Source of the DNA: Victivallaceae bacterium
Lineage (GTDB): Bacteria > Verrucomicrobiota > Lentisphaeria > Victivallales > Victivallaceae
Direction: 5' to 3'
Assembly: GCA_024405735.1 (NCBI GenBank)
Contig: JAKSOF010000001.1
Coordinates: 62,001 to 126,000, forward strand
DNA: 64,000 nucleotides
Numbering within the stretch: position 1 is the stretch's first letter; each line of letters starts with the position of its first letter. The position numbers and the translations under genes were made by a program. Shown here in pieces: positions 903 to 13,161 of this stretch. Below the pieces are notes generated by a model. The model had not been told where the DNA came from. It ran no database searches and saw only the letters and a program-made list of their open reading frames with translations.

Positions 903-2084
903 ATGAAAATTACCGATGTCAAAACTTTTGTCTGCAACGCATTCCGCACCAATTTCGTTTTCGTCAAGGTGGAAACGGATTCGGGGCTCTACGGCTGGGG
1001 TGAAGCGACTTTGGAGTACAAGGAATCGACCGTTGTCGCCGCGATCGGCGACCTGAAAGATTGGCTGATCGGCAAAGATCCGCACAATATCGAACTTTTC
1101 CGGCACGACTGTTACCGCGACGCCTACTGGCGCGGCGGTCCCGTATTGATGAGCGCGCTTGCCGGCGTTGAAATGGCGCTTTGGGACATCAAGGGCAAGG
1201 ATTTGAATGTCCCCGTTTATCAACTTCTCGGCGGCAAGGTGCGCGACGAAGTGCCGATCTACGTCAACGGCTGGTTCGCCCCCGCCAAAACGCCGGATGA
1301 ATTTGCCGCCAAGGCGCAGGAGGTGCGCAAAAACAAGTTTCTCGGCTGCAAGTGGGATCCTTTCGGCAAGGCGTGGCAGCAGATCGGCAAAAAGGAATTG
1401 CGTCAGGCGATGGAAAATATCGCCAAGGTCTCGGAAACGGTCGGCGATGATGTGCAACTTCTGATCGAGGGGCACGGACGCTTCGACATCCCGACTGCGG
1501 TCAAGATCGGGCGGATGCTGGAGGATTTCGACATTTTCTGGTTCGAGGAGCCGATCCCGCCGGACGACAAGGAAGGGATGCGCGAAGTCAAGGAGCGCGT
1601 GCGCGTTTCGATCGCGGCGGGCGAAAGACTTTACAACCGCTACGAGTACCGGCAGTTTTTCGATCTCAACTGCGCCGATTACATACAGCCGGACATTTCG
1701 CACGCGGGCGGCATTATGGAAATGCGGATGCTCGGCGCCGAAGCCGAATGCCGCCACATCGGTTTCTGTCCGCACAATCCGTCGGGTCCGGTCGCCAATG
1801 CGGCGACGTTGCAACTTGCGGCGTGCGTGCCGAATTTCGTGATGCTCGAAATGATGATGAGCGACGTGCCGTGGCGTAAGGAGATCTGCGACGAAACGCT
1901 CGTCGTCCGCAACGGCAAAATGGTCATCCCGGAGCGTCCCGGCATCGGCATCGACTTGAATGAAAAGGAGTTGCTGAAGCACCCCTACATCCGCACGAAT
2001 CTGCGCCATTACCGGGGCGATCTCACCGATATCCGTCCGCCGGATGCGGAATTTTACTATCAGATCATCCACGATGAAAAATAG
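903..2084 (+). CDS. Enolase-superfamily sugar-acid dehydratase, galactonate dehydratase-like
   Basis: A 393-residue mandelate racemase/muconate lactonizing enzyme. Aligned by eye to E. coli DgoD the active site is intact with a constant offset: metal ligands E189 (Asp in DgoD), E215 in FEEP and E241 in GERLY; catalytic H191 in EGHGR and H291 in PHNPSGP. Such enzymes remove water from an aldonate to give a 2-keto-3-deoxy acid. GAGGT precedes the start. The neighbours (SDR, mutarotase, MFS porter, GH16) suggest catabolism of a hexose or hexonate released from a polysaccharide. The exact substrate (galactonate, fuconate, anhydrosugar acid) is not determinable here. Confidence 0.9.
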   Translation: MKITDVKTFVCNAFRTNFVFVKVETDSGLYGWGEATLEYKESTVVAAIGDLKDWLIGKDPHNIELFRHDCYRDAYWRGGPVLMSALAGVEMALWDIKGKDLNVPVYQLLGGKVRDEVPIYVNGWFAPAKTPDEFAAKAQEVRKNKFLGCKWDPFGKAWQQIGKKELRQAMENIAKVSETVGDDVQLLIEGHGRFDIPTAVKIGRMLEDFDIFWFEEPIPPDDKEGMREVKERVRVSIAAGERLYNRYEYRQFFDLNCADYIQPDISHAGGIMEMRMLGAEAECRHIGFCPHNPSGPVANAATLQLAACVPNFVMLEMMMSDVPWRKEICDETLVVRNGKMVIPERPGIGIDLNEKELLKHPYIRTNLRHYRGDLTDIRPPDAEFYYQIIHDEK

Positions 2085-2093
2085 GAGGTAGAT

Positions 2094-2876
2094 ATGGGAA
2101 TGTTTGACGGCAAAACCGTTCTCGTCACGGGAGGAAACCGCAATACGGGGCTTCACATCGTCAAAAAGTTTGCCGACGAGGGCGCGCGCGTTTTTATGTG
2201 CGGTTCCACGGCGGGATCGACGCAAAAGGGCGCGGAAACGTTGACTTCGTGGGGTGTGAAAAACTTTTCCGCGATCCCCTGCGACGTCGCAAAAATCGAT
2301 GAGGTGAAACACCTCTTTGACGTCATTGAAAAAGAAGCGGGGCGTCTGGATATTCTCGTCAACAACGCGGCGCATCAGGGGATCGGCAAGCCTTTTGTCG
2401 AAATGGAGCCGGATTATCTGATGGAAGTTCTCGGCGTCAACGTGCGCGGCGGATTTCAGGTGACCCAGCAGGCGGTCAACCGCTTCTTTTTACAGCAGGA
2501 AAGCAAAGGCGTCGTCGTTTTTCTTTCCTCCAACACGGCACAGCGGGCGATCCGCAACCGGACGGCGTACTGTGCGAGCAAAGGCGCGATCAATTCGATG
2601 GTGCGCGCCCTCGCGCTCGACCTCGGTCCGCTCGGCATCCGCGTCAACGCCTGCGCGCCCGGATATATCTATACTGAAAGATGGGATGTCCTTCCCGAAG
2701 AAAAGAAAGCGCGCCGCCGGCTCAACTGTCCGCTCCGCCGCGAGGCCAAAGGCGGCGACATCGCCAACGTTGTCGCGTTTCTCGCGAGCGATTTGAGTTC
2801 CAATATGACGGGTGAGATCATCACCTGCGACGCCGGATGCTCCTGCCAGCATATGCCAATCGACGTCGATTGTTGA
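2094..2876 (+). CDS. Short-chain dehydrogenase/reductase
   Basis: A 260-residue classical SDR. The cofactor-binding TGGNRNTG motif spans residues 12-19, NNA is at 90-92, the catalytic pair is Y159 and K163 (YxxxK), with serines at 145-146. Such enzymes interconvert sugar or sugar-acid alcohols and ketones with NAD(P). AGGAGG stands just before ATG 2094, nine bases after the dehydratase stop, so the two are co-translated. The C-terminal tail (GCSCQHMPIDVDC) lies inside an 87-base direct repeat that is copied 286 bases downstream at the lipoprotein gene; the final residues may therefore be the source or the product of a local duplication. Confidence 0.92.
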   Translation: MGMFDGKTVLVTGGNRNTGLHIVKKFADEGARVFMCGSTAGSTQKGAETLTSWGVKNFSAIPCDVAKIDEVKHLFDVIEKEAGRLDILVNNAAHQGIGKPFVEMEPDYLMEVLGVNVRGGFQVTQQAVNRFFLQQESKGVVVFLSSNTAQRAIRNRTAYCASKGAINSMVRALALDLGPLGIRVNACAPGYIYTERWDVLPEEKKARRRLNCPLRREAKGGDIANVVAFLASDLSSNMTGEIITCDAGCSCQHMPIDVDC

Positions 2877-2916
2877 GGAAAATATGAAAAGCGTTGCGGG
2901 GCATTATTACGATTTC
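2830..2916 (+). repeat. Direct repeat copy 1, SDR 3' end and beyond
   Basis: Bases 2830-2916 match 3116-3202 at 84 of 87 positions (differences at 2862, 2883 and 2898). This copy encodes the end of the SDR, its TGA stop and a start-like ATG at 2884 beginning MKSVAGHYYDF. Confidence 0.95.
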
Positions 2917-3162
2917 GACCGGGAGCCGCGGCTCGACGGTATTGCAGATCAAACAGATACTCTCCGTATTCAGGAAAAATCCAAACGCAGTGAGGATATT
3001 TCCCTTGCGTTTCGCTATCCCGCGCAACTCAAAATCGAAGGGGAAAAAGCAACTGATGAAACATTGTTTTATGGTGGCGGCGGCGGTGATGCTTGCCGCC
3101 GGATGTGCGCCGTCAACGCCGGATGCTCCTGCCAGCATATGCCAATCAACGTCGATTGTTGA
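2884..3162 (+). pseudogene. Short ORF between the repeat copies, probable duplication debris
   Basis: An open frame of 92 codons starts at ATG 2884, 7 bases after the SDR stop with a GAGG-like site overlapping that stop. It begins MKSVAGHYYDF, the same words found inside the lipoprotein at residues encoded from 3170, then diverges and finally runs into the copied SDR tail in the second repeat. It overlaps the lipoprotein start (3056) in another frame. I recognise no family. It is best read as a truncated 5' end left by a duplication or recombination; a real small protein cannot be excluded. Confidence 0.35.
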
Positions 3163-6142
3163 GGAAAAAATGAAAAGCGTTGCAGGGCATTATTACGATT
3201 TCAGTCAGGAACCGCAGATCGGCAACTGGCGTATCGTTTTTCAGGAAGGGACGCGCTTTCGCGCCGAAACGCTCCTTTCGGGGGGCAGCGGATACAAGGT
3301 GATCGCCATTCCGGCGGAACCGATCCTCGGATACCACCGTATCGTACCGCATACGCTTTTTATTAACGGCGAAAAAATCGACCTCAACACACAATCATCG
3401 CCTTATTATTCCTGGGCGAATGCTTCCCGTTTCGGGGTGCGGCATTTTTTTGACGGAAGCGACGTCAAATTGACGTTTGAATTTTCGTCGCCGGAAAGCG
3501 CGCCGCTGGAATTTCTTCACGTCGCGCTGATCGACGATCTTGCTCCCGTGCCGCCGCCGGAAAAAATCAAATTTGACATTTCCGCAAAAATCGACGATTT
3601 TATCCTGCCCGATGCGGAAAAAAACGATGTGACAACTTGGGAGCAGGGGATCGTCAGCGAGGGGAAAGCAGGGCGTTTCGGCTTCGTCAAGGGCGACGGC
3701 TTGCTCGACGTCGCGATGCCTTATCTCGGCGTCGTCGACAAGATGTATCTTTGCGGACTGCCCGAGTATCAAAAACCGTTTCGCTGGAGTTTCCGGATGT
3801 TTCCCGACGGGATGCCGTTGCACGGAGATTTTCCGGTCGCGACGGTCAAAACCAACGATGATAAGCTCGAAGTCAACCGCCTTTCGGTCTTTTGGGAAGC
3901 GCAGACATCCGACGGCATTTTCAGTTGCCGTTATTCGATCGCCTATCCCGGCATCGCCGTACACGACAGCCGCGGCAAAATCACGCTTTCCGACCTGGAA
4001 TACGCCTCCAATTATCAGTATGTCCTGATCCCGAAATCCGGCGGAGCGGAAGTCCGTACACTCGAATCGCTCCGCGATTTGGAAATGGCGGCGAACTATC
4101 TGCTTTTTTTCGGGGCGACGGAATTTCCCGATGTACCGCTTCTCGTTATTTTAACGCGGAAACCGAAATCGCTGGAAGTTTCGCGTGATCCGCGCACAAA
4201 CCGGTTGAAAAAAATCGTTTTCGACGGTGTCGATCGCGCGATCACGGCGACGCCTTTCGGCATCGAAAGTTTCACGCCGGTTTCCCCTTGCGATGAAAAG
4301 TTTATCAAAGAAGCGTTGCGCCGTTGCCGTTTCTGGAGCCGCGCTTTATTGGCAATGCCGATTTCCGTAAGGGAATTTTACCGGATCGACCGTCAAAAGG
4401 GCGAAGTCGCGATCACGGAGAAATTCGATTATCTTCATATCGCCGACGAATGGGGGACGATCCCGCTTGAAATCGCGCCGCTGCCGCCTGTCCTGTCACA
4501 TTGCGGGATTGCCCGTCATCGGGGAAAAGCGGTCGGTTTCCCGACGAAATACGGAGAACTTACGGCGGTTGCCGGAAACGAGGCGACCTATACGCTCCCA
4601 TTGGCGGATTCGATGCGGAGTTTCCCCTTGCGCGAGGCAAAAGACGATGCCGTCGATAAACTGCTTGCGGACGGCTTGAAAGAATATCTTGACTTCACCG
4701 GAAACTTCGGCGACGATATGCAGTCCTATCCTTATGCGGGCGCGTTGCTGGAGCCGTTTGCGATGGCGTCGACGATGCTGAACTTCATGCCGGAAGCGAA
4801 AAAAAGAGAATTGACTGCAAAAATCGCCAATCGGCTGAAACTTGTCAACGACGTCAAGCGCAGTTATGTCTATCCCGCCGTCGACTGGGGCGAGATGATG
4901 CGTTTGATGCCCGATGACGAAAAGGTGCTGAAAATCTACCGCGATCCCGCCTTGCCCCGGAAAAAGTTATGGAATTATTACGAACGCACCGAGCGTTTCA
5001 CGCGGCAGAAGTATTTCATCTGCTATCTCAACCTCTGCTTGTTTACGGTCGAAAAAGTATTGAAAACCGGTACGCCGCAGGAGATTTCCTCCGTCGTTTT
5101 TCCGCTGATCGAAAACGACTGGGGCGCCGGATTGACCTTTTATTATATGTATCTCGCGATGCTTGCGACCGGTTCGACACGGGAAATACGGGATAACTGG
5201 TTGAACATCAAAAAGATGAATTCCTTTTTTGAACTTTTTCACGACTGGGCTTGTATGGCAAGCGGCTATGCGGAAAGCGGCTTGGGCTGGGTCGAGGGTG
5301 CGAATTACGGCGCGTTTACCGTTTTTCCGCATCTCGCGCATGCCGTCGGCGATGTTCAGGCGGAAAACTTCGCCCTTTACCTCGGGGCGAAGCAACTGGC
5401 GTTGCGCGCATCGCGGTTGCGCGCCGGAAGTTGCTATTTTAACCGCTATATGCGCACGGAGCCTTTTTATTTCTGGAAAATGTACCGGAGTGAATCCAAT
5501 CCCGCTTTCGATTTCCAGTCGCTTCCCAAAATGTGGCGGAACCGCGCCGTGGACGATGCGCTCTACAACGGGACGACCGAGGGGCTTTATCCGGAATACT
5601 TCCTCGATATGCAAAAAGTCCTGCCAAATGAATTCGATCAGGCGATCCGGCTCTACCGCGACGCGCTGACGCATTATAATGACAGAAAAAGCTGGACGAT
5701 GATCCAGCAGTTTTCCTCGGTGTTGCTCGCCGGCGCGCTGAATGAAAATGTCCCGGAAGATGTTGTACTGCAAGATCTTGAATTCGCCCGGAAAAACGGG
5801 ATGCTTTTTCACGAATGGCGCGGCATACACGTTTTCAGCCGCCGCCTGCCGAAAAATTATTTTGAATCGCAAATACATGCCCTTTTGCTTTTGCGCAAAC
5901 AGCCGCTCGCTTTGCACAACTGGCTGAATTGCGTCATCAAAGACGCCGTCTGGGATGCCGACAGAAAAATCGCGCGTATCACAGTGGAAAAAGTCGGCGA
6001 CGCTCCCGGCGAAGTAATGCTTTCTCTCAAACGCCCCTGCCAGTCGGTATTGCTTGACAAAACCAATGCCGTTCCGGCGGAAAAAACGGGTAAAATCACG
6101 ATCCCGATTTCAAAATCCACGATTATAGAGGTGCAGTTTTAA
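3056..6142 (+). CDS. Large predicted lipoprotein, family unknown
   Basis: The frame is open from 2894, but I choose ATG 3056 because it gives a clean lipoprotein signal: MKHCF, a hydrophobic stretch, then LAAGC as lipobox (C17). This yields 1028 residues. AAGGGG lies about 12 bases upstream. The N-terminal half looks beta-rich; the C-terminal half (about residues 550-920) is helical and rich in Trp, Tyr and Phe, as in alpha/alpha-barrel polysaccharide lyases or hydrolases, but I see no motif that names a family. Position inside a dehydratase/GH16/MFS operon suggests a surface or periplasmic role in polysaccharide handling. An alternative start is ATG 3170, with a better GAGG site but no signal peptide. 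The N-terminus lies in the duplicated repeat. Confidence 0.75.
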   Translation: MKHCFMVAAAVMLAAGCAPSTPDAPASICQSTSIVEEKMKSVAGHYYDFSQEPQIGNWRIVFQEGTRFRAETLLSGGSGYKVIAIPAEPILGYHRIVPHTLFINGEKIDLNTQSSPYYSWANASRFGVRHFFDGSDVKLTFEFSSPESAPLEFLHVALIDDLAPVPPPEKIKFDISAKIDDFILPDAEKNDVTTWEQGIVSEGKAGRFGFVKGDGLLDVAMPYLGVVDKMYLCGLPEYQKPFRWSFRMFPDGMPLHGDFPVATVKTNDDKLEVNRLSVFWEAQTSDGIFSCRYSIAYPGIAVHDSRGKITLSDLEYASNYQYVLIPKSGGAEVRTLESLRDLEMAANYLLFFGATEFPDVPLLVILTRKPKSLEVSRDPRTNRLKKIVFDGVDRAITATPFGIESFTPVSPCDEKFIKEALRRCRFWSRALLAMPISVREFYRIDRQKGEVAITEKFDYLHIADEWGTIPLEIAPLPPVLSHCGIARHRGKAVGFPTKYGELTAVAGNEATYTLPLADSMRSFPLREAKDDAVDKLLADGLKEYLDFTGNFGDDMQSYPYAGALLEPFAMASTMLNFMPEAKKRELTAKIANRLKLVNDVKRSYVYPAVDWGEMMRLMPDDEKVLKIYRDPALPRKKLWNYYERTERFTRQKYFICYLNLCLFTVEKVLKTGTPQEISSVVFPLIENDWGAGLTFYYMYLAMLATGSTREIRDNWLNIKKMNSFFELFHDWACMASGYAESGLGWVEGANYGAFTVFPHLAHAVGDVQAENFALYLGAKQLALRASRLRAGSCYFNRYMRTEPFYFWKMYRSESNPAFDFQSLPKMWRNRAVDDALYNGTTEGLYPEYFLDMQKVLPNEFDQAIRLYRDALTHYNDRKSWTMIQQFSSVLLAGALNENVPEDVVLQDLEFARKNGMLFHEWRGIHVFSRRLPKNYFESQIHALLLLRKQPLALHNWLNCVIKDAVWDADRKIARITVEKVGDAPGEVMLSLKRPCQSVLLDKTNAVPAEKTGKITIPISKSTIIEVQF
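3116..3202 (+). repeat. Direct repeat copy 2, inside the lipoprotein N-terminus
   Basis: Second copy of the 87-base repeat, 286 bases downstream of the first. Here it is read in another frame and encodes mature N-terminal residues of the lipoprotein. An SDR-frame reading still ends in CSCQHMPINVDC followed by TGA, showing that the segment descends from an SDR tail. Confidence 0.95.
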
Positions 6143-7057
6143 ATGGACGAATTCAAAAAAATCACGCTGGAAACATCTTGCTGGCTCGCCGAATTTTATC
6201 CCTGCCGCGCGGGAAATATGACCCGGCTTTGCCATAAAAAAAGCGGCACGGAAATCGTCCGCACGCCGCCCGACCTTGAAACTTACCTGAAACAGCCGGA
6301 AGTGTGGGGCGTCCCCGTCCTCTTTCCGCCCAACCGCACTCCGTACGGCAAATTCTGTTTCCGCGGCAGAGAGTATCAGATGCCGCTCAACGAAGTTTCG
6401 CGCAACAACAATCTTCACGGCGTCATCATGGATCTGCCGTGGCAATGCGAAATCACGGAAAATCAGGCGGAACTTGTTTTGCATCACCGAAGCCGTGAGA
6501 TCTGGCAGCACGATTTTTCGATGAAACTATCTTATGATTTCGGTGTAAGTGTCGTCAAACAAACGCTTTGCGTTACTAATGAAAGCCGCGCTGATATGCC
6601 GTTTTTCGTCGGATTCCACACGGCGCTGCCGATGCCGCCCGACCGCTCTTTGCGCTTTGCCCACCTCGACTGGTGTTTGTCGTTGCCCAAGCCGTTTCTG
6701 GTGCCGGACGGGACGAAATGCCCCTCAACGCTTCCCGACGGCTTTTTCCCCGGCGGGACAACGCCGGAAGATCTCGACGAACTTCTGCCGATGCTCCCCG
6801 ACGAAACGGGGTTTCGCGGCGTCGAAGTCGATTGCCCGATGCAACATGCGCGTTACCGCTATACGCCGGGGAAAGAGTGGAAGTACTGGATGTGCTGGAA
6901 TGCCAACGGCAAAAAAGATTTTTTCTGCGCGGAGCCGATGTCCGGCATCGTCGATTGCTTTCACCATCAGGAGGAGCCCGATTCCGGATTTGATTTCCTC
7001 AAACCGGGTGAATCGCGCGTGCTGACGGCGGAATTTTCCATTGAAACCGATATTTAA
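6143..7057 (+). CDS. Aldose 1-epimerase (mutarotase)-like protein
   Basis: A 304-residue protein with galactose-mutarotase-fold features: the early GVPVLFPPNR segment, GREYQMPLNE followed by NNNLHG (the histidine in the position of a catalytic mutarotase His), and a late AEPMSGIVD stretch where family members carry the catalytic Glu. Such proteins interconvert sugar anomers or bind hexoses. No signal peptide, so cytoplasmic. ATG 6143 abuts the TAA of the preceding lipoprotein, so translation is probably coupled. The sugar is unknown; the operon suggests the one fed to the dehydratase/SDR route. Confidence 0.8.
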   Translation: MDEFKKITLETSCWLAEFYPCRAGNMTRLCHKKSGTEIVRTPPDLETYLKQPEVWGVPVLFPPNRTPYGKFCFRGREYQMPLNEVSRNNNLHGVIMDLPWQCEITENQAELVLHHRSREIWQHDFSMKLSYDFGVSVVKQTLCVTNESRADMPFFVGFHTALPMPPDRSLRFAHLDWCLSLPKPFLVPDGTKCPSTLPDGFFPGGTTPEDLDELLPMLPDETGFRGVEVDCPMQHARYRYTPGKEWKYWMCWNANGKKDFFCAEPMSGIVDCFHHQEEPDSGFDFLKPGESRVLTAEFSIETDI

Positions 7058-7069
7058 GGGAGGATAAAG

Positions 7070-8329
7070 ATGAAAAACTTCTACAAATGGTTTCTCGTCG
7101 CGATGTTGAGTTTCGCCTTTTTCTTTCATCAGGCGGATCGCGCCCTTTTCGGCTTGCTGACGATCCCGATCCAGAAAGAATTGCTCTTGGCCGATGTCCA
7201 GATCGGCTGGATCAACACCGTGCTGTCGTGGACGATGGCGGTGATGATGGTCGTCGCCGGATTCATCGGCGACCGTTTTTCGCGCAAGTGGATCATCACG
7301 ATCTCATTGATGTTCTGGTCGTTGATGACGATCTGCATGGGATGGGCAAATTCATTTGCGCTTTTCGGCATCCCGGTCGGCACGTTTGCCGTTGTGATGT
7401 TTCTGCGCTCCATTGCGACGGGAAGCGGTGAAAGTTTCTACGCGCCAAGTGCTTATGCGTTGATTGCGGAATACCACAAAGAAAGCCGCTCGGTCGCTTT
7501 TTCCATCCATCAGGCGGCGCTTTACATCGGTTTGATGGTGTCGGGAGTGCTTGTCGCCTGGTGCCTCGCGTATCTGGATTCATGGCGGAACATCTTTTTC
7601 GTTTTCGGCATCGCCGGATTTCTGCTCGGCGTCTTTTTTATTTTCGCATTGAAAAATCCGGTCGGAAAGGAGTTGAGCGCCGCCGCTTCCAAAAGTGCCG
7701 TCGGCGCCGGATTGAAAGCCTTTTTCGCCAATCCCAGCGCGTTGTGCGCATCGGCGGGATTTGTCGCGATCGTCTTTGTCAATAACGCCTATCTCTTTTG
7801 GGCACCGAAATTTGCGGCGCAGAAATTTCTGATTTCCGTCGGCAGTGCGGGGCAGGGGGTGATGCTCTATCATCACCTCTGCGCCTTTGCGGCGATCCTT
7901 TTGGGCGGCGTCATCACCGATCGCTTCACGGCGAAATATCCGCGCTTCCGGCTCGGATTTCAAATCATCGCGCTGCTCGGCGGCGCGCCGATGATCTATC
8001 TGCTCGGTGCGGCAAATGCGTGGCAATCCTTTCTCATTTGCAGTGCGTTTTACGGAATTTTTCGCGGGTGTTTTGAAGTCAACACCCACGCTTCGCTTTT
8101 TGACGTCATCGCGCCTCAATACCGTTCGACCGCCGTCGGACTGCTCAATTTCCTCGGCTTTTTCGTCGGCGGCTTCTCCGGTGTGCTGATGGGGGATCTC
8201 GCGCAGAAATTCGGGACTCGCGGCTTTGAGATCGGTTTCGGTATTATGGCGGGATTCTATCTCGCGGGCGCGCTGTTGATGATGATCTCGTTTTTCTTTA
8301 CTTTCCGGAAAAACCGGGTCATGGAATAA
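7070..8329 (+). CDS. MFS transporter, sugar-acid/anion symporter type
   Basis: A 419-residue polytopic membrane protein with about 12 hydrophobic segments and the MFS loop 2-3 signature GFIGDRFSRK (residues 64-73). The N-terminal HQADRALFG resembles the region of hexuronate/glucarate porters (ACS family). It should import a sugar acid or small oligosaccharide product for the upstream dehydratase. GGGAGG precedes ATG 7070, 12 bases after the mutarotase stop. The substrate assignment is contextual only. Confidence 0.88.
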   Translation: MKNFYKWFLVAMLSFAFFFHQADRALFGLLTIPIQKELLLADVQIGWINTVLSWTMAVMMVVAGFIGDRFSRKWIITISLMFWSLMTICMGWANSFALFGIPVGTFAVVMFLRSIATGSGESFYAPSAYALIAEYHKESRSVAFSIHQAALYIGLMVSGVLVAWCLAYLDSWRNIFFVFGIAGFLLGVFFIFALKNPVGKELSAAASKSAVGAGLKAFFANPSALCASAGFVAIVFVNNAYLFWAPKFAAQKFLISVGSAGQGVMLYHHLCAFAAILLGGVITDRFTAKYPRFRLGFQIIALLGGAPMIYLLGAANAWQSFLICSAFYGIFRGCFEVNTHASLFDVIAPQYRSTAVGLLNFLGFFVGGFSGVLMGDLAQKFGTRGFEIGFGIMAGFYLAGALLMMISFFFTFRKNRVME

Positions 8330-9620: not shown

Positions 9621-10244
9621 ATGGCACTCCAATATCCGTCGACATCACGGACTTTATTAGATAAGATCGCTTCCGGGGACGAGATCACCTGGCAGGAGTT
9701 CTTTTTGCGTTACAATCCGGTCGTGCTTGCCGTCGCGCGCTACAAGGGGCTCTCGGATGAGGAAGCGCAGGATGTCGCCCAACAGGTGATGCTCACCTTT
9801 TTTCAGCAGAGCAAAACATTTCATTTCGATCCGGACATCGCCCGTTTCCGCACTTATTTCGGCAGGATCGTCGATGCGAAAATCGCCGATTGCTACCGGG
9901 AGAAATATCAGTTCAAAAAGGTGGATAAACCTGTCGAGGAGCAGATGGATGCAAGTTTTTCCGATCCGGGGCTTGATGCGATTTTTCTCGAAGAATTCCG
10001 CAAGTGCACCATGGAAGATGCTTACCATCTGCTGAAACAGCAGGTTTCCGCCGCCACCTGGCAGGCTTTTGAACTTTACGCCTTGCAGAATCGTCCGGTC
10101 GAAAAGGTCGCGGAATATCTCGGATGCTCCGTCAACCGGGTCTATCAGGCGAAAAAACGCTGTCTCGGCATTTTGCGCGGCATCATCGGCGAATGGAATC
10201 GCCGCGATCCGAAACTGAAACTGGAAATGCTCGGCGATGAATGA
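9621..10244 (+). CDS. RNA polymerase ECF-type sigma factor
   Basis: A 207-residue sigma-70 family protein. Region 2 lies around residues 25-95 (core-binding EEAQDVAQQVMLTFFQ, then RFRTYFGRIVDAKIADCYR) and region 4 around 130-185 with a helix-turn-helix (EKVAEYLGCSVNRVYQAKKRC). No anti-sigma gene is adjacent. Instead a membrane Ser/Thr kinase starts 8 bases before its stop codon, so the pair is translationally coupled. This is the layout expected of kinase-controlled ECF sigma factors common in PVC bacteria. It may direct RNA polymerase to promoters in the downstream gene array, although the one promoter I can read there is housekeeping-like. Confidence 0.9.
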   Translation: MALQYPSTSRTLLDKIASGDEITWQEFFLRYNPVVLAVARYKGLSDEEAQDVAQQVMLTFFQQSKTFHFDPDIARFRTYFGRIVDAKIADCYREKYQFKKVDKPVEEQMDASFSDPGLDAIFLEEFRKCTMEDAYHLLKQQVSAATWQAFELYALQNRPVEKVAEYLGCSVNRVYQAKKRCLGILRGIIGEWNRRDPKLKLEMLGDE

Positions 10245-12471
10245 TTTCCGTCCTGGGGACCGCCTTTGCCATTGTACATTGATCGACCGGTGCGGCGCCG
10301 GTTCCTACGGCGAGGTTTATCTTGCCGAAGACGAGATCGGCGCGCGCGTGGCAATCAAAATCGTCCCCAACGGCGGCCGTTATTCTGAACGCGAGATTGC
10401 GGGGTTGCGCCATTACCGCGACTGCAATCACCCCAATCTGTTGAAGATCCGCCATATCGAGATCACGCCGGAATATGTGATCTATACGATGGATGCCGCC
10501 GACGATCTGCATCGCGGACAAGGGAAATATCTGCCCGACACGCTTGCCAATCGGTTGCGGCTTCGCAAGCGGCTTGACGGCACGGAAATCGAAACGATGC
10601 TTGCAGGCATTTTGCCGGGCTTGGAAGAATTGCACGGCAAAAATCTGGTACATCGCGACATCAAGCCGGACAATATTTTGTACGTCAACGGCCGTCCGAC
10701 GCTTGCCGATGCGGGGTTGATCGTACCGGCGGGGCAGGGAAGTCTCGTCGGCACGCCGGGATTTTTGTCGCCGCGACTGCTTGCGGGAAAGGCGCGCGCC
10801 GAAACGCAGGACGATTTTTACGCGCTCGGCAAAGTGATCTATTGTGCGCTGACTGGAAATCCGGTCGAGGAATATCCCTCTTTGCCGCGGGATATGACGC
10901 TCAGCGGCAACGCCGACTGGGGAAAAATCTTCCGCACGATGTGCGAAGGCACGATCGCATCGGCGGCGGAATTCCGCGATTTTCTGCAAAGCGTCCGCTT
11001 GGGAACGGTATCCTTCCACCGGAAACGACGTATCGTCAAATGGCTCATTGCCGCCACGGCGGTGCTTTTGACGATGGCGGCAGTTGCTTTTTTTGTGTTT
11101 CGACGGGAAGAAACAGCGGCGGGAAGCATTCCCGTGTCAAAGTTACCTGGCAATGGTCCTGTCATTCGCCGGATCGACCGAACTCCTCCCGAAACGGAAA
11201 AGAAATGGAATGACGGCGCATTTTCCGTTTTGCAGGCGTTGCGCGAAGGGGGATTCTACGATACGGACAAATCCCGTCAGCTGGATCTTACCCGTCCGAT
11301 ATCGAAAGATGAATTTTTTAAACGGCTTTTAAGGTGCTCCGAAACGCCTCGTATGAGACTGTTGGTTTGCCTGCCGAGTCTTGCCGAGGAGAAAAAACCG
11401 TCGGCGCTTGAGCGTGAACTGGCGGAAATCTGCCGGGATTACCAAGCGGAAGCCCCATCGTTTGATGATGCGCGGCGGCAGAGCGCTCCCGATTTGCTTT
11501 TGTGGGGGAATCAACTTGCCATTCAGCGGATGAAACTTGCCGAAAACGAAGCGATGCAATGTCTCGCCTTGGACAGTATGATCCGTGAAAAAATCGACGA
11601 GATATTGGTCGCGGGCAAAATCAGCGAAAAGGAAAAGGAAGATTTAAAAACGTGGATCGCATTGCGAAACACATTGATCGATAAAAAGAGCGGGGGGAAA
11701 ACGATTCCCGCGAAGCGCGTCGCCCCTCCGGAATCACTGCAAAGAGTTCCGCTGCCCGCAGTGCCGGAAAAACCTGCCGAAAGTATTCAAAAACGGGGGG
11801 ATACGTTCCCCCGTCCCGTCGGAAAGAGGGAAGATATCCCCAAAAAAGATATTCCTCCCGTGTCGGATGTCTTGCATGATGCCGGATATTTTGATACGGA
11901 TAAAATGCGGGATCTGCTTTCGCTTCGCTCGTTGACCAACAAGAATTTCATTTCTCGCCTTTTGTTTGAGGAGGGAATTCCCAGGATGGTACACGGCTCG
12001 AAAAAGATTTTTCGGCACGGAAAAGTGCCGTCTTCCCTGGAAAGGGAAATTGCAGATGCGTGCCGTGATTACCGCGAAGGGGAAATGGGGATAAAAAGTT
12101 CCCGTCAGTATGATTGGGCTACGGAAGGAGGCAATCCTTTGGAAGTTCAGAGGAAAATGCTGTCCGAAGATACGGTGATGCAAGGGATCGCGCTGGATCT
12201 TCTGATCCGTGAAAAGATCGACGGGATACTGATTTCCGGCAAGATCAGTGAAAAGGAAAAGGAAGATTTAAAAACGTGGATCGCATTGCGAAACACCTTG
12301 ATCGATAAAAAAACGAAAAAAATTCAAATCCGGCGACAAAAAGTGAATCAGACGGCGAATAATGAAAACGGACTCCGGTTACGACCGGAGCGGTTGTTTT
12401 CAAACTTCGCCGATTTTTCCGTACGGACGGAAAAGGATTTGCTTTGCGCCGGAAACGATGTTATATTGTGA
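10237..12471 (+). CDS. Transmembrane Ser/Thr protein kinase with tandem extracytoplasmic repeats
   Basis: A 744-codon frame. Residues 1-260 form a Hanks-type kinase: glycine loop CGAGSYGEV (G20, G22, G25), K41 in AIKI, catalytic HRDIKPDN (D141, K143, N146), DAG in place of DFG (D158), and GTPGFLSP. One membrane helix (about 268-288) follows. The rest should lie outside the cytoplasm and contains two homologous repeats (about 329-484 and 542-692), each ending in near-identical GKISEKEKEDLKTW segments; they look like a sensor domain of unknown family. Coupled to the sigma gene. The last 40 or so codons overlie a terminator-like hairpin and a promoter, so the true C-terminus may be near residue 707. 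Confidence 0.9.
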   Translation: MNDFRPGDRLCHCTLIDRCGAGSYGEVYLAEDEIGARVAIKIVPNGGRYSEREIAGLRHYRDCNHPNLLKIRHIEITPEYVIYTMDAADDLHRGQGKYLPDTLANRLRLRKRLDGTEIETMLAGILPGLEELHGKNLVHRDIKPDNILYVNGRPTLADAGLIVPAGQGSLVGTPGFLSPRLLAGKARAETQDDFYALGKVIYCALTGNPVEEYPSLPRDMTLSGNADWGKIFRTMCEGTIASAAEFRDFLQSVRLGTVSFHRKRRIVKWLIAATAVLLTMAAVAFFVFRREETAAGSIPVSKLPGNGPVIRRIDRTPPETEKKWNDGAFSVLQALREGGFYDTDKSRQLDLTRPISKDEFFKRLLRCSETPRMRLLVCLPSLAEEKKPSALERELAEICRDYQAEAPSFDDARRQSAPDLLLWGNQLAIQRMKLAENEAMQCLALDSMIREKIDEILVAGKISEKEKEDLKTWIALRNTLIDKKSGGKTIPAKRVAPPESLQRVPLPAVPEKPAESIQKRGDTFPRPVGKREDIPKKDIPPVSDVLHDAGYFDTDKMRDLLSLRSLTNKNFISRLLFEEGIPRMVHGSKKIFRHGKVPSSLEREIADACRDYREGEMGIKSSRQYDWATEGGNPLEVQRKMLSEDTVMQGIALDLLIREKIDGILISGKISEKEKEDLKTWIALRNTLIDKKTKKIQIRRQKVNQTANNENGLRLRPERLFSNFADFSVRTEKDLLCAGNDVIL
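11581..11688 (+). repeat. Intragenic repeat A in the kinase gene
   Basis: 108-base segment matching 12205-12312, including 47 consecutive identical bases. It encodes the end of sensor repeat 1. Confidence 0.9.
12205..12312 (+). repeat. Intragenic repeat B in the kinase gene
   Basis: Second copy of the 108-base segment, exactly 624 bases (208 codons) downstream of the first, in the same frame. The long identical run suggests recent duplication or gene conversion. Confidence 0.9.
12373..12401 (+). terminator. Terminator-like hairpin inside the kinase 3' end
   Basis: CTCCGG (12373-12378) pairs with CCGGAG (12385-12390), followed by a GTTGTTTT stretch. Flanking AAAAC / GTTGTTTT can extend the stem. 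The T tract is interrupted, so efficiency is uncertain. Confidence 0.45.
12439..12467 (+). promoter_or_regulatory. Promoter of the AAA+ gene array
   Basis: TTGCTT (12439-12444), 17-base spacer, TATATT (12462-12467). It lies inside the last codons of the kinase frame and would start a leader RNA of about 240 bases before the next start codon. Confidence 0.75.
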
Positions 12472-12549
12472 AAGTATCTCAAAAGGAGGGCTTTTATCAC
12501 ATAAATATCTGATCCGACAAAATAAAATCGCTTTTTGACAAGCTTAGTT

Positions 12550-12689
12550 TTATCCGGGAAACGCCAAATTCACGATAAAGACCGCATTGCTTGCGAATAT
12601 GCTCTATATTGGAGCGTATTCCGTCCGCACGGTCTTTATGGTATTGGCGTACCACCGGATAAGTGCAACACGGAGTACGCTCTTTTTTT
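12550..12689 (+). promoter_or_regulatory. Leader RNA with two competing hairpins, candidate attenuator
   Basis: Structure 1 is a long hairpin at 12550-12662 made of four collinear helices: TTATCCGG/CCGGATAA, ACGCCAA/TTGGCGT, ATAAAGACCG/CGGTCTTTAT and GAATATGCTC/GAGCGTATTC (one G-U), about 35 pairs in all. Structure 2 pairs 12612-12623 with 12671-12682 (12 pairs, one G-U) directly before TTTTTTT (12683-12689), which is a terminator. Both use bases 12612-12621, so they exclude each other. This is the logic of a riboswitch or protein-controlled attenuator upstream of the gene at 12718. No known riboswitch core is recognised. Confidence 0.6.
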
Positions 12690-12717
12690 ACGCAAGCAAA
12701 TAACAAAAGGGATGAAG

Positions 12718-13161
12718 ATGGACGAAACAAAATTTCAGCTGGTTATGGAAGAATTGCTTGCCGAATATGAAAAATCCGGCAAGAGCATGGATGATTTCAT
12801 TCAGGAAAAATTGACTGCGGCGGGACGGAAAGACGCGGAGGAATACGCAAAAGAAATTTCCGCGACGCTCGAAACGATCGATCAGAAATTTACCGGGTTG
12901 CAAAAATACAAAGCCGAAGGCGGCAATCGTGAAGAATGGCTGCGCCGGGAAGTCGATCGCGCCGCCGCAGATTTTTCTCCCGACGAGGTGGGAAAAGTGT
13001 TGTCTTCGACGGTTAAAGTCATGCAGGGCGACGAAGCGGCTCTGCCGGATGAAAACGCTTCGTACAGCGCATTGGATGCGGCGTTTCTGATCCGCGATCT
13101 CGACGATGCATTGGTGAGCAACGTTTGTGCAAACTTGGGCGGAAAAGAGGAGGAAAAATAA
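12718..13161 (+). CDS. Hypothetical acidic helical protein
   Basis: 147 residues, no recognised family. I start at ATG 12718 (AAAAGGG seven bases upstream) rather than ATG 12712 or the longer frame, which would overlap the leader hairpins. The sequence is highly charged and predicted helical (MDETKFQLVMEELLAEYEK at the N-terminus; many Glu, Lys and Asp), without signal peptide or membrane segment. First gene after the predicted attenuator; the next gene begins 2 bases after its stop with a GAGGAGG site inside this gene's 3' end, so the two are co-translated and may interact. Confidence 0.75.
   Translation: MDETKFQLVMEELLAEYEKSGKSMDDFIQEKLTAAGRKDAEEYAKEISATLETIDQKFTGLQKYKAEGGNREEWLRREVDRAAADFSPDEVGKVLSSTVKVMQGDEAALPDENASYSALDAAFLIRDLDDALVSNVCANLGGKEEEK

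Follow-up and report, generated by a model that had tools for sequence, protein, structure and literature searches.

A putative transcription attenuator leader RNA preceding a gene array of a gut bacterium from the class Lentisphaeria

The stretch of DNA analysed here, referred to as the window, comprises 64,000 nucleotides of the genome of a gut bacterium of the Lentisphaeria (Victivallaceae; contig JAKSOF010000001.1, positions 62,001 to 126,000). On its forward strand, where all window features described below are located, it carries the gene for an ECF-like sigma factor (Sigma70_r2, r4; 9621–10244), the gene of its partner, a Ser/Thr protein kinase (10237–12471), the proposed attenuator leader RNA (12472–12717) and the gene array that follows it. 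As the open frame of the kinase gene runs into the leader promoter, the true stop may be located upstream of position 12471. The promoter (12439–12467) is read from the sequence as TTGCTT (12439–12444) and TATATT (12462–12467) with a 17 bp spacer, and its position predicts, without transcript data, a transcript start at about 12474. Over the homologous leaders the promoter consensus is TTGAC, 17 bp, TGnTATATT, and thus housekeeping-like, with a promoter score of at least 12 in 88/101 copies compared with 8% of shuffled sequences; consensus hexamers had been claimed by the initial annotation of this DNA. The first gene of the array (12718–13161) encodes a protein of 147 aa without Pfam match, and its ATG at 12718 lies, as annotated, 29 nt past the T-run that terminates the leader.

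The leader folds at −74.8 kcal/mol versus −51.2 ± 4.1 kcal/mol for dinucleotide shuffles (z −5.7) and is more stable than all 200 of them. Two folds compete for the same sequence. The big hairpin (12550–12662) is composed, as had been claimed, of four helices, namely P1 (12550–12557 with 12655–12662), P2 (CGCCAA, 12562–12567, with 12644–12649), P3 (12575–12584 with 12630–12639) and, at the tip, P4, in which the antiterminator strand A (12595–12604) pairs with strand B (12611–12624). In the terminator, strand B pairs instead with strand C (12670–12683), followed by seven T (12683–12689); position and T-run of this hairpin had been annotated correctly, while its stem has 14 pairs and not 12. The prior statement that both hairpins need one and the same strand holds with B as the common strand. 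Two features expected of an attenuator are consequently present, the mutually exclusive helices A:B and B:C sharing strand B, and an intrinsic terminator with its U-run ahead of the first gene.

Relatives of the leader were first found by DNA search, and a covariance model derived from 11 copies (R1) finds it in 63/137 genomes of the order and, at phylum scale, almost only in that order. A second model built from 102 copies (R2) finds the leader in 86/198 genomes of the class, with more than 150 copies overall. The E-values of both models are rough, the models being derived from the very sequences described, and, as many genomes are draft assemblies, absence of the leader is weak evidence. The source genome harbours about seven copies according to R2, two of which are weak (E 1.4e-4). 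Between the window and a second copy on contig C15 (L004) the strands A, B and C change together; behind L004 lies a second array (1714–5148), with genes for a Cys-rich 'CLTCQHFK' protein and for a small secreted one, which by eye resemble proteins of the window array. Weaker copies are located on contigs C10, C13 and C20 of the same genome (L172, L173 and L174). As the P2 sequence of L172 and L173 is wholly different and still pairs, more distant members have probably been missed by these sequence searches.

Public matches that carry a name come from gut genomes of Lentisphaeria and Victivallis; in addition, one contig assigned to Clostridia has a strong leader copy (L151; E 2.9e-23), which reflects either transfer or mis-binning of that contig. 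Around the leaders L088 and L089, two genomes of the genus are 100% identical over 3.3 kb, for which recent transfer, close relatedness and contamination all come into question. At another locus (L065), identical leaders at 6801–6933 and 7933–8065 are separated by 1.1 kb, each before a different gene. A scan of viral contigs with one exact pattern only gave no leader match. A MITE or multi-copy transposon was considered and rejected, as a given subtype mostly occurs only once in a genome.

Conservation of the alternative pairings was assessed in 102 aligned copies. For P1–P4, 94% of the cells are paired and both sides change at 30/30 counted pairs (P1, 99.4% of cells and 7/7 pairs; P2, 99.5% and 6/6; P3, 89–96% and all counted pairs), with a covariation score of 0.71 compared with 0.22 for shuffles and 0.05–0.08 for slid versions of the structure. 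As the alignment was fitted to P1–P4, it leans towards these helices. The terminator stem B:C and a small hairpin P2b, which are absent from the fitted model, are together 91.6% paired and reach a covariation score of 0.42 versus 0.27 for shuffles, above every shuffle. Furthermore, as an independent check, in 61 non-redundant copies the own B:C pairing amounts to −19.8 kcal/mol versus −12.7 kcal/mol with swapped strands, and the own A:B pairing to −17.7 versus −11.3 kcal/mol, each with 0/10,000 permutations, whereby relatedness was handled only by dropping copies more than 75% alike. A T-run of at least five is present in 96/102 copies. Because the helices covary, strand B co-evolves with both A and C and the T-runs are kept, the element is a conserved terminator/antiterminator leader. 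This supports the reading of the initial annotation, which had suggested a covariance search for homologues and would have been refuted had these not conserved both pairings; homologues were found, covariation extends to every helix of the big hairpin, and A:B and B:C both co-evolve.

The folded domain contains additional elements. A long-range pseudoknot connects the stretch before P1 (CAAGC, 12539–12543) with the joint before strand A (GCTTG, 12589–12593), supported by the own-versus-swapped comparison (0/10000) with three negative controls. P2b (GGTA-TTGGCG-TACC, 12640–12653) can form by pairing of 12640–12643 with 12650–12653 (GGYA/TRCC across copies), presents the 3′ strand of P2 as its loop and shows at one pair a joint change from UA to CG in 32 sequences. 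At the joint of P1 and P2, GAAA or AAAA is kept in 99/102 copies. A conserved folded domain with covariation and a pseudoknot is what is demanded of a new riboswitch, whereby binding of a small molecule, likewise demanded, is only a possibility here, without a suggested ligand. The pseudoknot had been missed by the initial annotation, as had the sigma/kinase linkage, the multi-copy nature of the leader and the hypervariability of the downstream genes.

Building on the observed co-evolving alternative pairings, the conserved T-run and the gene order, we consider it likely that the leader is a cis-acting transcription attenuator, with regulated read-through being inferred in the absence of transcript or bench data. 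Transcription would start at about 12474, and the nascent RNA would fold into a pseudoknotted domain consisting of P1–P3, P2b and the long-range pseudoknot, capped by A:B, upon which RNA polymerase would continue into the array (ON). If this domain is absent or does not hold, C would displace A from B, beginning at the unpaired linker that follows B, and the B:C stem with its seven U would stop transcription before the first gene (OFF). It is thereby inferred that strands exchange during transcription, that the ON state is the bound one and that the trigger is either a small molecule or a protein. As the linker is unpaired in the hairpin and in several copies extends the terminator stem (by eye), it could be the starting point of strand exchange, inferred by analogy with the ZTP riboswitch as far as the accessible part of the source describes it (PMC10085676). 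With respect to computed stability, the antiterminator of the window (−60.2 kcal/mol) has a lead of 12 kcal/mol at equilibrium over the terminator (−47.8 kcal/mol), and over 96 copies it is favoured by a median of 16.9 kcal/mol, never reversed. The antiterminator is thus the predicted stable fold and would also be the first to form, so that termination would require strand exchange during transcription or a factor. Two other possibilities are not excluded, an RNA that acts in trans and a structured 5′ leader with constant read-through.

The leader is specifically linked with the sigma factor gene. It is found within 10 kb of 41/58 genes for sigma factors similar to that of the window at E ≤ 1e-35, here called close, as compared with 2/45 more distant ones, and leader and close sigma factor co-occur across genomes (31/35 versus 55/163; p 1.7e-9, uncorrected for relatedness). 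As in the window, a Ser/Thr kinase gene lies in most cases directly behind the linked sigma gene. The pair is located upstream of the leader in most of the first 20 loci inspected and in 7 of the second 20, which represent other subtypes, while about 15 of the 40 loci, read further upstream, are without sigma or kinase match. In two genomes for which no leader was found (G114:C31 and G131:C90), the match to the close sigma gene is interrupted by a stop codon. Most likely, leader and sigma/kinase pair form one regulatory system, the shared step of which is unidentified. That the linked sigma factor reads the leader promoter is not supported, because the promoter consensus is housekeeping-like.

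The genes downstream of the leader are highly diverse. First genes fall into 58 groups among 100, with zinc ribbon proteins as the commonest products, followed by OB-fold-like, Sel1, dynamin and DUF1232 proteins, a mixture too broad to suggest a ligand. A gene in the same direction follows nearly all copies, and with gene starts picked by a simple score it begins at most 40 nt from the T-run in 33/95 scored genes and at most 60 nt in 45/95; the former figure leaves little room for another promoter. As PADLOC matches are few among 88 first genes (LeoA, LeoBC, JukA and single others), a defence-gene array is not claimed as the general reading. Closely related leaders share long upstream stretches, and their homology stops 0–5 nt past the T-run, as seen for the pairs L052/L053, L080/L083, L130/L131 and window/L077, behind which the genes are unrelated. 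The leaders L080 and L083 agree at 98% over 312 nt, and neither flank of the one is related to that of the other.

In 37/101 copies (p ≤ 0.01), the 3′ half of the copy itself recurs in inverted form directly upstream of the promoter, and at the family level none of 20000 permutations gives as much. The inverted copy of L079 covers 53 bp at approximately −183 to −130 from P1 and includes the P1 sequence of L079 itself. In the window, a remnant of 14 bp, CCGTACGGACGGAA (12419–12432), is the reverse complement of leader positions 12619–12632 with one mismatch and not significant alone (p 0.06). Inspection of L079 by eye led to the rejection of two candidate functions, a divergent small RNA, as the inverted arm has no terminator, and a symmetric invertible leader, as inversion of the segment would not rebuild the leader. 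A convincing reason for the upstream inverted copy or for the break of homology at the T-run is lacking, and both are unexplained. Conceivably, the 300-bp unit is RNA switch and DNA junction in one, a sigma/kinase-linked control module to which new cargo is joined precisely at the T-run, with the upstream inverted copy as the other end of a recombination unit, a combination of claims that taken together we regard as speculative and rather improbable. If true, each newly acquired gene would come under one common RNA checkpoint.

These features need to be weighed against other explanations. The break of homology at the T-run, the inverted 3′ half that a third of the copies carry ahead of the promoter and the unrelated flanks of L080 and L083 could be taken to indicate that the sequence serves primarily as a DNA device such as a mobile cassette, an invertible promoter or a recombination site, with the RNA hairpins as a by-product. 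Such a device is unlikely, as the subtypes are mostly single-copy per genome, the one exact pattern found no viral contig, inversion in L079 would not restore a leader (by eye), and no use at the DNA level is evident for strand C, the pseudoknot or the T-run. Equally unlikely in our view is an independent gene for a small RNA that ends at a terminator of its own and acts in trans, the gene behind being served by a different promoter; promoter and terminator of its own, compactness, the pseudoknot and several copies per genome would fit such a gene, but the gene in the same direction behind nearly all copies is often too close for a separate promoter, and competition of A for B would be needless.

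Attenuation itself can be conceived with different triggers. The least probable is that a leader peptide is translated, or a ribosome binds, close to the 5′ end: a Shine-Dalgarno-like stretch 40–115 nt before P1 in 85/102 copies, counted without shuffle control and located at about 12484–12490 in the window, points in this direction, but the 102 upstream regions, inspected by eye and not quantified, show neither a conserved start codon nor a conserved peptide behind it, and the region up to P1 is A/T-rich and variable. Somewhat better founded, yet still doubtful, is that the switch is set not by a small molecule but by a protein encoded nearby (kinase, sigma factor or a product of the array) that binds to the leader, which is a variant of the attenuation explanation and not an alternative to it. 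The tight and specific linkage to one sigma subfamily, usually with its kinase, argues for such a protein, while the lack of a recognised RNA-binding domain in Pfam in both sigma factor and kinase and the approximately 15 of 40 loci without either match upstream argue against it. Cis-acting attenuation remains the preferred reading, and it comes with a built-in test, as read-through is predicted to change in opposite directions when A, B and C are mutated.

The leader looks like a new, undescribed family of RNA switch, with switching inferred without bench data. That it matches no riboswitch known to the initial annotation is borne out by the search with Rfam covariance models, which gave no match for the leader at gathering scores for the window or at E ≤ 5 for eight loci. 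A large and strongly covarying regulatory RNA family absent from Rfam is hence encountered in a little-studied class of gut bacteria. The tie to a sigma/kinase pair combined with changing cargo suggests that genes which are exchanged rapidly are controlled from one common point, and allows the question of the ligand or protein partner to be answered directly.

Among known systems, a literature search for described RNAs of Lentisphaerae or Victivallales retrieved only Acido-Lenti-1 (RF01687), a table entry of another kind, which like the leader is a structured RNA from Lentisphaerae, but is listed as not cis-regulatory (PMC2864571) and is not matched by the leader. A fixed promoter side with changing cargo behind a structured element is reminiscent of integron and cassette junctions, which is a resemblance only; judged by eye, the leader copies do not possess one common recombination site. 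An ECF-like sigma factor gene beside a Ser/Thr kinase gene, as in the window, is also known for EcfP and EcfK/PknS, where the sigma gene adjoins a Hanks-type kinase gene (PMC13147305; PMC8999054); in the available parts of these sources no leader RNA is mentioned, whereas here a leader is linked with the pair. Comparable in structure are the ZTP (pfl) and fluoride (crcB) riboswitches, the terminators of which overlap the motif (PMC2864571) and in which, according to the accessible portions of the respective reports, strand displacement decides the outcome (PMC10085676; PMC11077080). Within the same limits, the leader shares with them the architecture of a compact pseudoknotted 5′ leader, the last strand of which doubles as part of an intrinsic terminator, and differs from them in having no sequence or covariance match in Rfam, different helices and no shared gene context.
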